Notes under the pieces: generated by a model | What the model saw: only the letters and a program-made list of their open reading frames with translations | What the model was told of the DNA's origin: nothing | The model's database searches: none | Translations under genes and position numbers: made by a program | Part shown: piece after piece, positions 585-6,185 of the stretch | Layout: each line of letters begins with the position of its first letter | How positions within the stretch are numbered: position 1 is the stretch's first letter | Assembly: GCA_021850505.1 (NCBI GenBank) | Contig: JAJZLW010000016.1 | Location: 1-6,185, forward strand | DNA length: 6,185 nucleotides | Direction: 5' to 3' | Origin: Thermoplasmata archaeon | GTDB lineage: Archaea; Thermoplasmatota; Thermoplasmata; Thermoplasmatales; Thermoplasmataceae

Positions 585-2822
585 TTATTGATACAGACCA
601 AGTTCTTCAACCTGCCGCTTCTTTTCCTGTACTGTTTTCCCCATTTCCTGTGCAATATTCTTGTAGAACTTCAGGACATTGTCATCAACAGAAGGTCTTA
701 TAGATTTCAATGCATCAATGAAATTCTTCTGCGAGACCTGAGATGCATCTGGATTCTCCCTGTATGCCATCATACCAGCTTCCCTGCAGAGGTTCTCCAG
801 ATCGGCGCCAACGTATCCCTCCGTGCGCTCTCCAATTTCTTCCAGGTTGACGTCTTTTGCAAGGGGCATATTCTTTGTGTGCACCTCAAGAATCTTGACC
901 CTGCTCTCCTTATCGGGCGCGGGTATGTAGATCATCTTGTCAAATCTCCCAGATCGCACGAGAGCACTGTCCAGTATATCTGGTCTGTTAGTTGCCGCTA
1001 TGACAACAACACCCTGAAGTGTCTCTATCCCATCAAGAGATGTGAGCAGCTGATTAACCATCCTTTCAGTAACACCCGAATCGCCGAAAGTGCCTCTTCT
1101 CGGTGCGATCGAGTCGATCTCATCCAGGAAAACGATCGACGGGGCAACCTGTTTTGCCTTCTTGAATATCTCCCTGATCGCCTTCTCGCTCTCTCCAACC
1201 CATTTACTCAAGACCTCTGGCCCCTTTACAGATATGAAATTAGCCTTGCTTTCCGTGGCTACCGCTTTTGCAAGAAGGGTTTTACCGACACCCGGTGGGC
1301 CATAAAGAATAAATCCCTTGGATGGCCTGATTCCAAGTTTCTTGAACACATCCGGCTTAAGGAGCGGAAGTTCAACAGCTTCCCTCAATTCATTCTTCAC
1401 TTCGATCAAGCCTCCGATATCCGTCCACTTTACATTCGGTATCTCTGCTGTGACCTCACGCAGGCTGCTGGGTTCAATCAGCTTCAGTGCGTCCATGAAA
1501 TCATCTTTCCGGACTGCCATCTTTTCCAGTATTTCAGCCGGAATAGGCTTGTCAAGGTCAATCTCAGGAAGATACCGTCTCAGGGCATTCATTGCAGATT
1601 CCCTTGCAAGGGCTGCGAGATCTGCACCAACAAAACCGTAAGTGTATTCCGATATCTCGTCCAAGAACTCACCCTTTTCCTGCTCTGACATGCCCATAGG
1701 CATACCCCTTGTATGTATTGCAAGAATCTCTTTCCTGCCGTTCTTGTCAGGAACACCAATGTTGATTTCCCTGTCAAATCTGCCAGGTCTCCTCAGGGCC
1801 GGATCAACGGCATCAATCCTGTTGCTCGCGCCAATAACGATGACATGGCCCCTTTCTTTCAGTCCATCCATCAGTGTCAGCAGCTGGGCAACAACCCTTC
1901 TCTCAACCTCGCCCTGAACCTCCTCTCTTTTAGGGGCTATTGAATCTATTTCATCTATGAATATTATAGAAGGTGCAGATTCCTCCGCTTTCATAAATAT
2001 TTCACGAAGCTTCTGCTCACTCTGGCCGTAGTACTTGCTCATTATTTCCGGTCCGTTTATTGAATAGAAATTTGCACCGCTTTCATTTGCCACTGCTCTT
2101 GCAATAAGTGTCTTACCTGTTCCTGGTGGACCATACAGGAGAACTCCCTTCGGCGGGTGTATTCCGAGTCGTTCGAAGAGTTCGGGGTGCTTGAGGGGGA
2201 GTTCTATTATTTCCCTTACCTTGCCCAGCTGATCTCTAAGTCCACCTATATCCTCGTAGCTGATCCTTGAAACATCCTCAAGAACCTCAGAAGCAGGTTC
2301 CTCCCTTATCTCTATCTTTGTTGTCTCACCGACCTCAATCGGTATCTTTGGGGGAAGCGTTTTAACGACCTTGAATAGAAGCCCGGAATGACCCGCGAGC
2401 GTCAGGCCCGGTACGCTGATATTATCCTGCTCGATCATCGGCCTTCTTATAAGAGCCTTCTGAACAAACTCTTCAATGCCCTCACCAAACTTCAATCTCT
2501 GATCTTTTCTGATAATTGGAGCAAGAGTTACCCTCTTTGCCTCTTCAGCAATGACTCTCCTGACCTTTACCTTGTCTCCAATGGAAGCACCGCAGTTGTT
2601 CCTCATAACACTGTCAATTCTAACAATGCCACGGTTCTCATCCTCAGGTCTTGCACGGTAAACTCTGCCGACTGTTTTTTTAACCTTCTCTATCTCTACA
2701 ACATCACCAATCTCTGCTCCGAGAGACATCCTTGATTCTTCGTCAAGCCTTACCCTGGACATGCCTGGATCAGTTGAATTAGCCTCTGCCACTCTTAAGG
2801 TAATGTCATTATTGCTTGGCAT
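585..2822 (-). CDS. vat: VAT, Cdc48/p97-type double AAA+ ATPase unfoldase
   Basis: At 745 residues this has the full Cdc48/VAT architecture. Residues 1-~185 form the substrate- and cofactor-binding N domain (double-psi barrel plus four-stranded part). D1 has Walker A GPPGTGKT (231-238), Walker B IIFIDEID (286-293), pore loop KYYG (263-266) and arginine fingers in RRPGRFD (344-350). D2 has Walker A GPPGVGKT (508-515), Walker B IVFLDEID (563-570), pore loop KWVG (540-543) and VRSGRFD (622-628), where the usual Pro is Ser. The C-terminal helix ends in LGLYQ. Known role: a hexameric cytosolic ring that threads and unfolds proteins using ATP, feeding the archaeal 20S proteasome. The start is ATG at 2822, with no Shine-Dalgarno and a TATA box 23 bases upstream, indicating a leaderless or nearly leaderless mRNA. 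It is followed after 15 bases by the PRC-barrel gene. Long + strand open frames opposite it are composition artefacts. Confidence 0.97.
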
Positions 2823-3706: not shown

Positions 3707-4411
3707 TTATCCAATCAGGTTTCCATTGCTGTCCAGAAAGAATGTTACGATTTTGCTACCAGATCCAGACTGCTTTATCTTAAAGTAACTGCATGCCGAA
3801 TATTCTGTCTCAAATTTTTTTCCAATTGACCTGAATCTGTCAAATGTCAATAGTATAACGGATACTTCCATCCGTTCACCGAGTTTCGGCTTTATCATAT
3901 AAGTTCCAGTATCAGGGTCATAAGTTCTAGCGTAGTCCTGGATAACGGCCTTTGTCGCTCTCTCACCGTCTTTCAGGAATGAATCTGGAATGACAAGCAG
4001 ATACTTTGAATTATATACAGACAAAGCGGGATCTTTTGAGGGCAAACCCGCATAGTCATTCGAAAAAGTCGAATGATGGCACTCATCACACAGTGTTATC
4101 AGGTTTCTGAAAGAGTCTGATCCTCCATCCTTTCTGGGAATGATATGATGAACCTGGACTGAAAGATGGATGGAATGTGACGAGTTCTCTTTAGGAACAT
4201 CTGCAAATGTTGATTTTCCGCACGATCTGCAGGAATAATTATCTCTTGCAAGAACCGCCTCGGAAATTCTTTTCCATGGGATTCCTTTCGGCGTCTTATC
4301 TCCGGCAGGATCAAAATCTGATGCATTCTCAAATCCAAAATGCCTGCCGATTTGATCTATGACAGCTGGAGAAACTCTTGGTATTTCAGAATAAATGTTT
4401 GGTATCCTCAT
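3707..4411 (-). CDS. HNH endonuclease, last gene of the mevalonate-type operon
   Basis: A 234-residue protein with a clear HNH nuclease fold in its middle. A CRSC pair (Cys61, Cys64) and a CDEC pair (Cys108, Cys111) form a structural zinc site. The ββα-metal core is VHHIIPRKDGG (87-97), with His88/His89 as catalytic candidates, then Asn103 in RNLITLC and His112/His113 after the second Cys pair. Residues 1-55 and about 130-234 are outside the HNH core and I do not recognise them; the C-terminal part alternates strands and loops and contains no membrane segment. The ATG at 4411 overlaps the TGA of the decarboxylase gene as ATGA (4408-4411) and has only a weak GGA upstream, so translation is probably coupled to the upstream gene. 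Members of this fold serve in restriction, phage defence, repair and homing; nothing here separates these, and no methyltransferase, intron or specificity subunit is adjacent. Confidence 0.85.
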   Translation of the reverse strand: MRIPNIYSEIPRVSPAVIDQIGRHFGFENASDFDPAGDKTPKGIPWKRISEAVLARDNYSCRSCGKSTFADVPKENSSHSIHLSVQVHHIIPRKDGGSDSFRNLITLCDECHHSTFSNDYAGLPSKDPALSVYNSKYLLVIPDSFLKDGERATKAVIQDYARTYDPDTGTYMIKPKLGERMEVSVILLTFDRFRSIGKKFETEYSACSYFKIKQSGSGSKIVTFFLDSNGNLIG

Positions 4412-5535
4412 TGTGATTCCGTAAAAGAGGCGAAAAATGCTTTTCCCCGTTCCCTGAAAGCGTTTGATGCAGATGGAGAACTGTCCTTGACTATATTACC
4501 TGAAATGTAAAAATCCGTTTCTGTTTCAAGGAATTCCTTCAGTAAATTTTCATCCAGTGTCATGACCAGTATGCTCGGACCAGTATCTGCGGTAAAATAT
4601 AACCCTGGATTTTTTTTCCTGAAAGATACGATCCTCTCAATTAGAGAAAGGGATTCCTCAGTTTGAAGAACCCTTCCAGCTGACATAAGGAGTGAGTTCA
4701 GATTAAGCATCTCCTCCTCCGCACGGATCAGAAGATCTTCAAGATCAAAGGAGCGATCAATTATCTCCCTGAAACGGGCAAACTTGTTCTGTACCCATGG
4801 GATGTATTGTGGTGACTTGACTGATAATTCATGCATCTGATTTGTTGAATAATCAGCATACTTTGGAAACATTGCTATTTTTATTTTAGAGAAATCAATC
4901 TTAATCTCATGTGCCATGCATTTTGGCTCCTGAATGCCCGGGTATGAGATCCAGGTTGAAAGCCCCGGAAAGACAGATCTTGTGCCGGAACCAGAAACAA
5001 ACTTTGCAAACCTGGATGCAAGCATTGAATGGGCCCTAACATTATAACCGAAGACATTGGATACAAGAGCGCTAGAAACAGCAGCGGCAACCGCAGATGA
5101 TTCGCTCAATCCTTTTGCCCTAACATACCTCCTTTCCCTTTCAACATAGAAAGTGAAATAACCCTTCACACCGCAGATTGATCTGAATTTATCAAGTGCT
5201 ATCTTCGCAGATTCGCTCCTTTCAGGATCAAATCTGGAGTCAAGATAAACAATATCCGACTTTCCAGCTTTATTGTAAAGGCAGTATGCCCTTGCAATTG
5301 AAAAGTCTGTCAGGATTGACATTGATGGGGTATAGGCAATCCTTGAATTCCTGTCATAATAGCCGATAAACTTCTCAATCGCCTTGCTGGGGTAACCTGA
5401 ACCAAATGTGATTCTACCATCCTCTGGGGATGGCGGTGGCATCTCCTCTTCGTGGATTATCCCCATTTCATTCAGTTTTGAATATATTCTTGAACCCTTC
5501 TGATTAAGATCAGATATAACATTAAGATCCAACAA
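4408..5535 (-). CDS. Probable mevalonate-3,5-bisphosphate decarboxylase (GHMP-fold, MVD family)
   Basis: A 375-residue relative of diphosphomevalonate decarboxylase. AIEKFIGYYD (52-61) aligns with the family motif AVIKYWGKRD, placing the conserved Lys at Lys55; SGSGTRS (181-187) matches SGSACRS with Arg186; TADTGPS (315-321) matches the TFDAGPN motif with Asp317. This Lys/Arg/Asp set is that of a decarboxylase; Thermoplasma mevalonate 3-kinase is described as lacking the Lys. The GHMP ATP loop is altered: GLSESSA (142-148) has Glu where family members have Ser, and the preceding Pro is missing, fitting an enzyme that needs no ATP because its substrate already carries the 3-phosphate. Expected reaction: mevalonate 3,5-bisphosphate to isopentenyl phosphate, CO2 and phosphate in the cytosol. 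The TTG start at 5535 lies inside the kinase gene (14-base overlap) with GGTGG 6 bases upstream. Met24 (5466) is an alternative start without a visible Shine-Dalgarno. Ordinary ATP-dependent MVD activity is the main alternative. Confidence 0.75.
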   Translation of the reverse strand: MLDLNVISDLNQKGSRIYSKLNEMGIIHEEEMPPPSPEDGRITFGSGYPSKAIEKFIGYYDRNSRIAYTPSMSILTDFSIARAYCLYNKAGKSDIVYLDSRFDPERSESAKIALDKFRSICGVKGYFTFYVERERRYVRAKGLSESSAVAAAVSSALVSNVFGYNVRAHSMLASRFAKFVSGSGTRSVFPGLSTWISYPGIQEPKCMAHEIKIDFSKIKIAMFPKYADYSTNQMHELSVKSPQYIPWVQNKFARFREIIDRSFDLEDLLIRAEEEMLNLNSLLMSAGRVLQTEESLSLIERIVSFRKKNPGLYFTADTGPSILVMTLDENLLKEFLETETDFYISGNIVKDSSPSASNAFRERGKAFFASFTESQ

Positions 5536-6136
5536 AATCAGCCACCATTTTCATGAGTCTCTCCCTTGTATCGTTATATGAAATATTGTCTATGGTTTCA
5601 ATGTTATTCACCTTCGACGCTTCGAGGGAACAATCCATAATCGTCCTGTATTCATGTAAGTGCTCGATTAGTCGTTTTCCAGAAGATCCAGGATGCGTAA
5701 ATTCCTCTCTTTCCCCGAGTCGTTTTTCATGTATTTTGCTGTCAGAGATATAGATATAAACCGGCAATATCAGATCCTTCGGTATATCTGTGAAATAGAC
5801 TGGCTCAAAGTAAAGCGTCTCAATGATCATGCTTTCTCCATTTTTAATTGCTCGGTCAATAACGGCTCTTATACCTTTCCAGATGAATTTTGCCTGCTCC
5901 CTGAATCCGCTAATGATATTGTCAACAGTCATATCACCAAAGTGTTTCCAGGAATCATAAACGCTGTATCCTAGGACATCGTCGTTGTTATCCTGGTAGG
6001 CCCTCAGGAATTCACGCAGATAGTCTCCTGAAAGAACAATGTTTATCCCGTTGGATGCTGCTATTGATCCTGAAAGCGAAGTTTTCCCAACCCCAGGCAC
6101 TCCCCCTATTAGTATTATTTTTGATTTTTTGGGCAA
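5522..6136 (-). CDS. P-loop kinase related to 2-phosphoglycerate kinase; probable mevalonate-3-phosphate 5-kinase
   Basis: A 204-residue soluble kinase. Walker A GGVPGVGKTS occupies 11-20 (Lys18, Thr19). It is followed by the 2-phosphoglycerate-kinase-like block VLSGDYLREFLRAY (34-47), YSVYDSWKHFG (57-67), a strand with the acidic SMIIETLYFEP (102-112) in the place of the family's EGVH region, and a basic lid KRLGEREEF (138-146). Family knowledge: the Thermoplasma mevalonate-3-phosphate 5-kinase is a P-loop protein resembling 2-phosphoglycerate kinase and not a GHMP kinase. Here the gene overlaps by 14 bases the gene for the enzyme that would use its product, which is the main reason for the specific call. 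Expected reaction: ATP plus mevalonate 3-phosphate to mevalonate 3,5-bisphosphate. The start is TTG at 6136 with AGGAG 10 bases upstream; an in-frame stop lies just before it and the next Met (69) would remove Walker A. A true 2-phosphoglycerate kinase or another small-molecule kinase remains possible. Confidence 0.7.
   Translation of the reverse strand: MPKKSKIILIGGVPGVGKTSLSGSIAASNGINIVLSGDYLREFLRAYQDNNDDVLGYSVYDSWKHFGDMTVDNIISGFREQAKFIWKGIRAVIDRAIKNGESMIIETLYFEPVYFTDIPKDLILPVYIYISDSKIHEKRLGEREEFTHPGSSGKRLIEHLHEYRTIMDCSLEASKVNNIETIDNISYNDTRERLMKMVADFVGS
5542..5546 (-). promoter_or_regulatory. Shine-Dalgarno site for the decarboxylase TTG start
   Basis: The minus strand reads GGTGG inside the last codons of the kinase gene, six bases before the TTG at 5535. 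It supports the long N terminus over Met24. Confidence 0.45.
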
Positions 6137-6137
6137 T

Positions 6138-6185
6138 TTATCCCCACTCCTTTAGAAGATCCCTAGTATCAATTATCCTTGTTAT
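6138..6185 (-). CDS. C-terminal end of an unidentified upstream gene (partial)
   Basis: On the minus strand, one frame is open from the window edge for 15 codons and ends in TAA at 6138-6140, reading ITRIIDTRDLLKEWG. This is protein-like, with a short amphipathic helix at the end, and it stops one base before the TTG of the kinase gene. The Shine-Dalgarno site of the kinase lies within its last codons, as in the other junctions of this operon. Fifteen codons are too few to identify a family, and an open frame of this length can arise by chance. Confidence 0.5.
   Translation of the reverse strand: MTRIIDTRDLLKEWG
6147..6151 (-). promoter_or_regulatory. Shine-Dalgarno site for the kinase TTG start
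   Basis: The minus strand reads AGGAG, ten bases ahead of the TTG at 6136; a second G-rich run (GGGG, 6142-6145) is closer. With an in-frame TAA just upstream, it fixes the TTG as the only reasonable start that keeps Walker A. Confidence 0.5.

Follow-up and report, generated by a model that had tools for sequence, protein, structure and literature searches.

The locus

The 6,185-nt Thermoplasmata contig analysed here (the window is this stretch at its full length) carries two overlapping minus-strand genes, one for a putative mevalonate-3-phosphate 5-kinase (M3P5K) and one for a putative mevalonate-3,5-bisphosphate decarboxylase (MBD), whose products would catalyse consecutive steps of the Thermoplasma-type mevalonate pathway (Table 1). 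An earlier reading of the letters, referred to below as the sequence-only reading, had located two reading frames with a 14-base overlap, and both lie where it placed them. The pair is part of a longer co-oriented block, in which the end of a gene for an isochorismatase-fold protein (IHL) lies upstream of the kinase, and an HNH endonuclease-family gene, whose ATG overlaps the MBD stop codon by 4 nt, lies downstream of the decarboxylase.

The alternative start for the decarboxylase is the next in-frame ATG, at Met24. Starting there would cut residues that align across relatives, so the overlap between the kinase and decarboxylase genes is probably real. By itself, a short overlap on the same strand is unremarkable; what counts as evidence is that relatives show the arrangement again.

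Table 1. Features of the window, with positions counted from its first base
Feature	Position	Strand	Details
M3P5K gene	5522..6136	-	204 aa, TTG start; NF008996 E 3.4e-70
MBD gene, MVD-family	4408..5535	-	375 aa, TTG start; NF040847 E 1.4e-117
Kinase/decarboxylase gene overlap	5522..5535	-	14 nt; 11 nt if the TTG codon next to the first is the start
Kinase Walker A motif (P-loop), GGVPGVGKTS	6077..6106	-	G11, G12, P14, V16, G17, K18 and S20 invariant in 23 aligned kinases
MBD Lys55 codon, catalytic triad	5371..5373	-	Invariant in 25 aligned MBDs
MBD Arg186 codon, catalytic triad	4978..4980	-	Invariant in 25 aligned MBDs
MBD Asp317 codon, catalytic Asp	4585..4587	-	Invariant in 25 aligned MBDs; taken as Picrophilus torridus Asp309
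HNH endonuclease-family gene	3707..4411	-	234 aa; PF01844 E 2.6e-10
IHL gene end	6138..6185	-	Last 15 codons and stop; 1 nt before kinase start
CDC48-family AAA ATPase gene, outside the pathway	585..2822	-	TIGR01243 1020.9 bits

Assignment of the two enzymes

In the sequence-only reading the pair was matched with the second and third steps of the Thermoplasma route, and the corresponding family models do score best by wide margins. For the kinase, the best curated model is NF008996 (M3P5K), matched over its full length (residues 6-198 on model positions 1-192 of 193) with 235.7 bits, against 103.9 bits for the 2-phosphoglycerate kinase (2PGK) model NF003259, whose cut-off is 343 bits. The protein is 48% identical to the M3P5K of Thermoplasma acidophilum (Ta0762), and a search of the PDB with it gave weak P-loop matches only. 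In a quick tree of 76 kinases it falls within the M3P5K set, Thermoplasma included, and a branch with a support of 100 splits off 19 2PGK-like kinases, none of them a proven 2-phosphoglycerate kinase. The grouping with 2PGKs that would have spoken against the sequence-only reading is thus not seen with these 2PGK-like rows.

The possibility that this protein is a 2-phosphoglycerate kinase, or a related enzyme with some other substrate, encoded next to MBD only by chance, draws on its 103.9 bits with the 2PGK model and on the 2PGK names attached to several of its relatives in public sources. It has to contend with the much higher M3P5K score, the identity to the T. acidophilum enzyme, the well-supported branch and the 43 of 63 genomes in which MBD adjoins the kinase (see below), as well as with the failure of any protein in the 292 genomes of the phylum searched to pass the 2PGK cut-off. 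A profile search aimed at 2-phosphoglycerate kinases gave 301 matches, and the 120 listed included no recognisable proven 2PGK that could have been placed in the tree. We consider a different substrate very improbable, and the 2-phosphoglycerate kinase reading was rejected on the relative model scores and the tree. The kinase is best regarded as a divergent M3P5K orthologue, called by tree and neighbourhood and not by cut-off, and presumably acting on mevalonate 3-phosphate. A separate family of 2PGK-like kinases is present in genomes of the phylum (L134-L153, except L141), scoring 120-136 bits with the 2PGK model.

The decarboxylase scores 392.8 bits with NF040847 (bisphosphomevalonate decarboxylase) and is 47% identical to the MBD of T. 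acidophilum (Ta0893). Its best PDB match by far is 7t71, the P. torridus MBD (E 1.6e-51), to which the MBD of the Picrophilus genome in our set (G103) is nearly identical. Passages of PMC5177888 describe an Asp/Lys/Arg triad and missing ATP-binding residues for MBD, and a passage of PMC9254496 describes Asp309 as essential in the P. torridus enzyme. The Lys/Arg/Asp decarboxylation triad is present in the window protein as Lys55, Arg186 and Asp317, assigned here by alignment. When 12 mevalonate 3-kinases (M3Ks) of the order were aligned with the MBDs, all 12 had Leu at the position of Lys55, and the 11 that reach the position of Asp317 had Gly there. In the alignment with the MVD 2gs8, the window protein has GLSESS where that enzyme has GLSSSS.

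A common superfamily leaves traces in the scores with MvaD (60.9 bits), diphosphomevalonate decarboxylase (58.4 bits) and M3K (28.9 bits), and an ATP-dependent (di)phosphomevalonate decarboxylase or an M3K might be proposed on that basis. The MBD score and the lead of 7t71 among the PDB matches are against such a proposal, Asp317 and Lys55 argue against an M3K in particular, and GLSESS replaces the GLSSSS of the MVD 2gs8; we give these alternatives hardly any credence, and they were discarded on model scores, PDB match and triad residues. The second gene is thus predicted to encode an MBD, with mevalonate-3,5-bisphosphate as its likely substrate. A second MBD-like protein occurs in five Thermoplasma genomes (L077, L079, L082, L084 and L087; 231-307 bits), forming a clade of its own in the MBD tree; these copies retain the Lys and Asp of the triad, whereas the Arg is Ala or Lys in all five.

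The closest relative of the window is Thermoplasmatales archaeon UBA582, whose decarboxylase (L001) is 98% identical and is encoded on a contig with the same gene order. Comparing the two gives a dN/dS of 0.111 in the kinase (15 synonymous and 6 nonsynonymous differences) and 0.088 in the decarboxylase (26 and 8); the ratio is 0.373 in the HNH gene and 0.023 in MsrA, and few differences lie behind any of these values. The kinase and decarboxylase genes look to be under purifying selection.

Pathway complement

The sister genome UBA582 (G001) contains one M3P5K match, one MBD match, an isopentenyl phosphate kinase (IPK) over its cut-off (214.3 bits) and an M3K of 226 bits that is cut at a contig end. 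The single M3P5K match means that no separate, better Ta0762 orthologue, which would have undermined the sequence-only reading, is found in that genome. No mevalonate kinase passes its cut-off there (best 79.1 bits against 163), nor does AcnX (20 bits against 31.5). The genome therefore has the Thermoplasma-type set, with M3K, M3P5K, MBD and IPK present and mevalonate kinase and AcnX not over cut-off.

Across 117 genomes of the order, M3P5K (at least 100 bits) was found in 67, MBD (at least 68 bits) in 65 and M3K (at least 226 bits) in 71, with all three in 59; these cut-offs apply throughout the order survey. AcnX is over its cut-off in 36 genomes and mevalonate kinase in 35, and none of these is among the 67 genomes with M3P5K (tables read by eye). 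A few genomes have neither pathway type, which may reflect incompleteness. The split agrees with passages of PMC11052028, which describe the types of mevalonate pathway and extend the Thermoplasma type to some DPANN and Heimdallarchaeia.

Recurrence and age of the pairing

A genome scan gave 60 loci, some of them near-duplicates. The kinase gene immediately precedes MBD on the same strand in 40 of these; in 16 no kinase was found within the locus, and 4 have another arrangement. How often the two genes are neighbours in Thermoplasmata had been raised by the sequence-only reading; within the order they adjoin in 43 of the 63 genomes that have both, including three with broken or cut genes (G063, G099 and G105). 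They are apart in the other 20, Thermoplasma, Ferroplasma and Acidiplasma among them. No genome of the order has M3K beside the pair; on shared contigs the distance of M3K is 67 kb or more to M3P5K and 22 kb or more to MBD. The pair does serve, as the sequence-only reading proposed, as a handle for uncultured lineages. It is common, though, and no peculiarity of this contig, since it recurs in these genomes and in Picrophilus; the larger block described below had been missed.

Passages of PMC11052028 describe mevalonate-pathway genes as usually clustered. The adjacency of M3P5K and MBD is stated in none of the passages available from PMC5177888, PMC11052028, PMC9254496, PMC8975820 and PMC4357925; the 2014 papers PMC4081127 and PMC4047369, which PMC11052028 cites for the pathway, could mention it.

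Plausible MBD starts mostly lie about -32 to +40 nt from the kinase stop codon, and about +105 to +117 nt in one clade, with no fixed frame. This variation, the separation of the genes in 20 genomes and the short overlap at the neighbouring MBD/HNH junction are all what would be expected if the overlap were ordinary genome compaction, accompanied at most by co-transcription and not by translational coupling or an enzyme complex. Against this stands the recurrence of close M3P5K-MBD spacing in divergent lineages, and we hold the chances of plain compaction to be even.

On the MBD tree, the adjacent label requires six changes, compared with a mean of 22.1 when labels are shuffled, and none of 500 shuffles gave so low a number. 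The label ignores strand and order, so that L010, L022 and L045 are scored as adjacent, and L073, from the same genome as L060, was omitted. Rows with adjacent genes are found to either side of the midpoint root, and 21 of the 22 separated rows fall within one part of the tree; the remaining one is a Micrarchaeota locus with M3K between the two genes. The simplest reading is that adjacency is probably ancestral and separation later, the support for the root being weak. Given the pairing in 43 of the 63 order genomes that have both genes, and in Picrophilus, the separated layout of T. acidophilum is more likely to be the derived one.

Two loci labelled Marsarchaeota (L025) and Micrarchaeota (L032) have an MBD that groups with Thermoplasmatales and no kinase beside it, and are possibly mis-binned. 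One metagenome bin (G068) holds two different M3P5K-MBD pairs (L090 and L091), possibly from two organisms.

Taken together, the window very probably encodes the second and third steps of the Thermoplasma-type mevalonate pathway in overlapping, neighbouring genes, which lie in a co-oriented block and in a neighbourhood that is probably ancestral. The data behind this reading are the sequence families, the catalytic residues, the gene order and how often it recurs, and the set of pathway genes in the sister genome. M3P5K would phosphorylate mevalonate 3-phosphate at C5, and MBD would then yield isopentenyl phosphate by ATP-independent removal of CO2 and the 3-phosphate. The genes for the IHL protein, M3P5K, MBD and the HNH nuclease are probably carried on one transcript, and the overlap may couple translation of the two enzymes; M3K and IPK are encoded on other contigs in the sister genome. 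From the distribution we infer that the M3P5K-MBD neighbourhood was probably present in the ancestor of this archaeal group and was broken up in the lineages of Thermoplasma, Ferroplasma and Acidiplasma.

Several points weigh against this reading. It is built on sequence, and pathway completeness was read in the sister genome UBA582, where M3K is cut. Both proteins fall below the curated cut-offs of their best models, the kinase with 235.7 against 250 bits for NF008996 and the decarboxylase with 392.8 against 560 bits for NF040847; most genomes of the order fall short as well, the former cut-off being passed in 28 of 117 and the latter in 10, with the Picrophilus MBD passing barely (561.5 bits; 556.6 when trimmed). 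The kinase tree, from which L132 (genes in pieces) was omitted, is weaker evidence than the model scores, because its 2PGK side consists of 2PGK-like rows only, on a long branch. The MBD tree is quick and weakly resolved at depth (midpoint root 76%), with a long Picrophilus branch. Lastly, adjacency is not required, since it is missing in 20 of 63 genomes.

The isochorismatase-fold and HNH neighbours

The 49 bases at 6137-6185 are identical to L001, where the full IHL gene occupies 6705-7310 and encodes 201 aa. The L001 protein scores 36.6 bits with PF00857 (cut-off 27), and the isochorismatase fold is backed by an AlphaFold model (pLDDT 90.3) and by Foldseek matches to hydrolases of this fold (E about 1e-7, TM 0.5-0.7). 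Isochorismatase-like hydrolases have a catalytic Asp-Lys-Cys triad. In 22 aligned members of the IHL family the Asp position is Asn in every case, the Lys position is not conserved and the Cys position is never Cys. Eight other paralogues from the same genomes all keep Asp and Lys, yet only one has the Cys, the other seven having Gly; the distinctive change is thus the replacement of Asp by Asn.

Of 58 distinct kinase loci, five are too short upstream; in 34 of the other 53 the IHL gene is the immediate upstream neighbour of M3P5K. In the order survey it is found (at least 90 bits) in 62 of the 67 genomes with M3P5K and in one of the 50 without it, the single case (G073) having MBD and M3K; in 46 of those 62, T. 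acidophilum included, it is directly upstream of M3P5K. The profile used was built from members in these same genomes, and keeps the linked family (96.7 bits and up) apart from the other paralogues (at most 73.6 bits). When three Thermoplasma loci (T. acidophilum, Thermoplasma volcanium and G107) are compared with five window-type loci (ORFs of at least 90 aa), only the IHL gene and M3P5K are shared, and these adjoin even though MBD is located elsewhere. Picrophilus shares M3P5K and MBD, and further downstream genes with some of the loci. The link between the IHL gene and M3P5K thus appears to outlast the general decay of gene order.

In 27 genomes of the order an HNH gene follows MBD at a distance of no more than 200 nt, and 23 genomes have all four genes in a row. 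These block counts also take in kinase fragments of 94 and 62 bits and one MBD fragment (G098, 60 bits), and exclude HNH rows below 229 bits. The HNH motif residues are conserved in 14 aligned proteins.

Literature searches pairing isochorismatase with Thermoplasma and mevalonate, or with Thermoplasmatales, returned no paper. One tentative suggestion, which we think somewhat less probable than its contrary, is that the isochorismatase-fold protein is an undescribed, catalytically altered partner of the pathway, which would bind M3P5K, regulate it or deal with a metabolite of the pathway. The HNH protein might be another member, with a narrower distribution. A number of observations tell against a partner. 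Conserved operons often mix unrelated genes, and the presence of the IHL gene and M3P5K tracks phylogeny, with both genes in one set of genomes and neither in the other, so that their co-occurrence may go back to a single event. The IHL gene is below the survey level in five genomes with M3P5K (G079, G087, G088, G089 and G092), and it is beside the pair in none of eight pair loci labelled Micrarchaeota or Marsarchaeota, so the pathway does not require it. The link of the HNH gene to the pathway is weaker because the gene falls below threshold in most M3P5K genomes that lack the full block, and because 15 AcnX-type genomes carry a distant HNH relative (125-153 bits).

The remaining genes of the window encode MsrA and a PRC-barrel protein, and the end of an aRF1-like gene is on the plus strand. 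A gene for the CDC48-family ATPase is also found on the same strand within 9 kb downstream in 15 of 45 pair loci, although many of the loci do not extend that far. Searches of the window found no RNA element above the Rfam gathering score and no tRNA. A viral context was dismissed after a scan of viral contigs gave 20 pattern matches and no relative. Scanning the window for bacterial-type promoters and terminators gave 11 and 4, with 7.5 and 1.6 expected from shuffles; these were not used as evidence.

Comparison with known systems

The enzymes of the window are well assigned. That their genes are paired is no novelty, since this layout is widespread and probably goes back to an ancestor; what had not been expected is the isochorismatase-fold neighbour. 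Knowledge of the pathway in extreme acidophiles comes mostly from T. acidophilum, whose genes are scattered. In the survey the paired layout is the more frequent one and probably the ancestral one, which makes adjacency of M3P5K and MBD a cheap marker of the pathway in uncultured archaea and in the DPANN genomes that acquired it.

The T. acidophilum enzymes belong to the same families as those of the window, and the MBD triad is alike. The sequence-only reading gave the two genes as far apart in that organism, and they are indeed some 157 kb from each other (M3P5K at 804,147 and MBD at 961,418 of a contig of 1,564,906 bases). The T. acidophilum M3P5K nevertheless keeps the isochorismatase-fold gene directly upstream. 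Should this neighbour matter, the pathway would have a missing component lying beside M3P5K in the T. acidophilum genome itself. The 2-phosphoglycerate kinases (NF003259) are a related P-loop family, differing in the lower score that the window kinase obtains with their model and in the separate branch taken by the 2PGK-like rows.

Picrophilus resembles the window in having the kinase followed by MBD (pto0478), with an overlap of 8 nt if TTG is the start. It differs in that no isochorismatase-fold or HNH gene was found in the 8.5 kb locus; a relative of the isochorismatase-fold gene is elsewhere in the genome.

The Micrarchaeota clusters, such as that of Ca. Micrarchaeum A_DKE (L060/L073), have the same M3P5K-MBD pair and in addition an M3K homologue, which is clustered in six of the eight pair loci labelled Micrarchaeota or Marsarchaeota (L010, L028, L045, L046, L054 and L060/L073). 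They differ from the window in the lack of an isochorismatase-fold gene beside the pair and in a divergent M3K (116 bits in L060, against a cut-off of 440). Gene order varies, being M3K-M3P5K-MBD in three of these loci. As expected for such kinases, the six clustered M3K homologues lack the decarboxylase Asp in the alignment. According to a passage of PMC8975820, the M3K, M3P5K and MBD genes were probably acquired from Thermoplasmatales; clustering would let the three genes move together and so make such a horizontal transfer simple.

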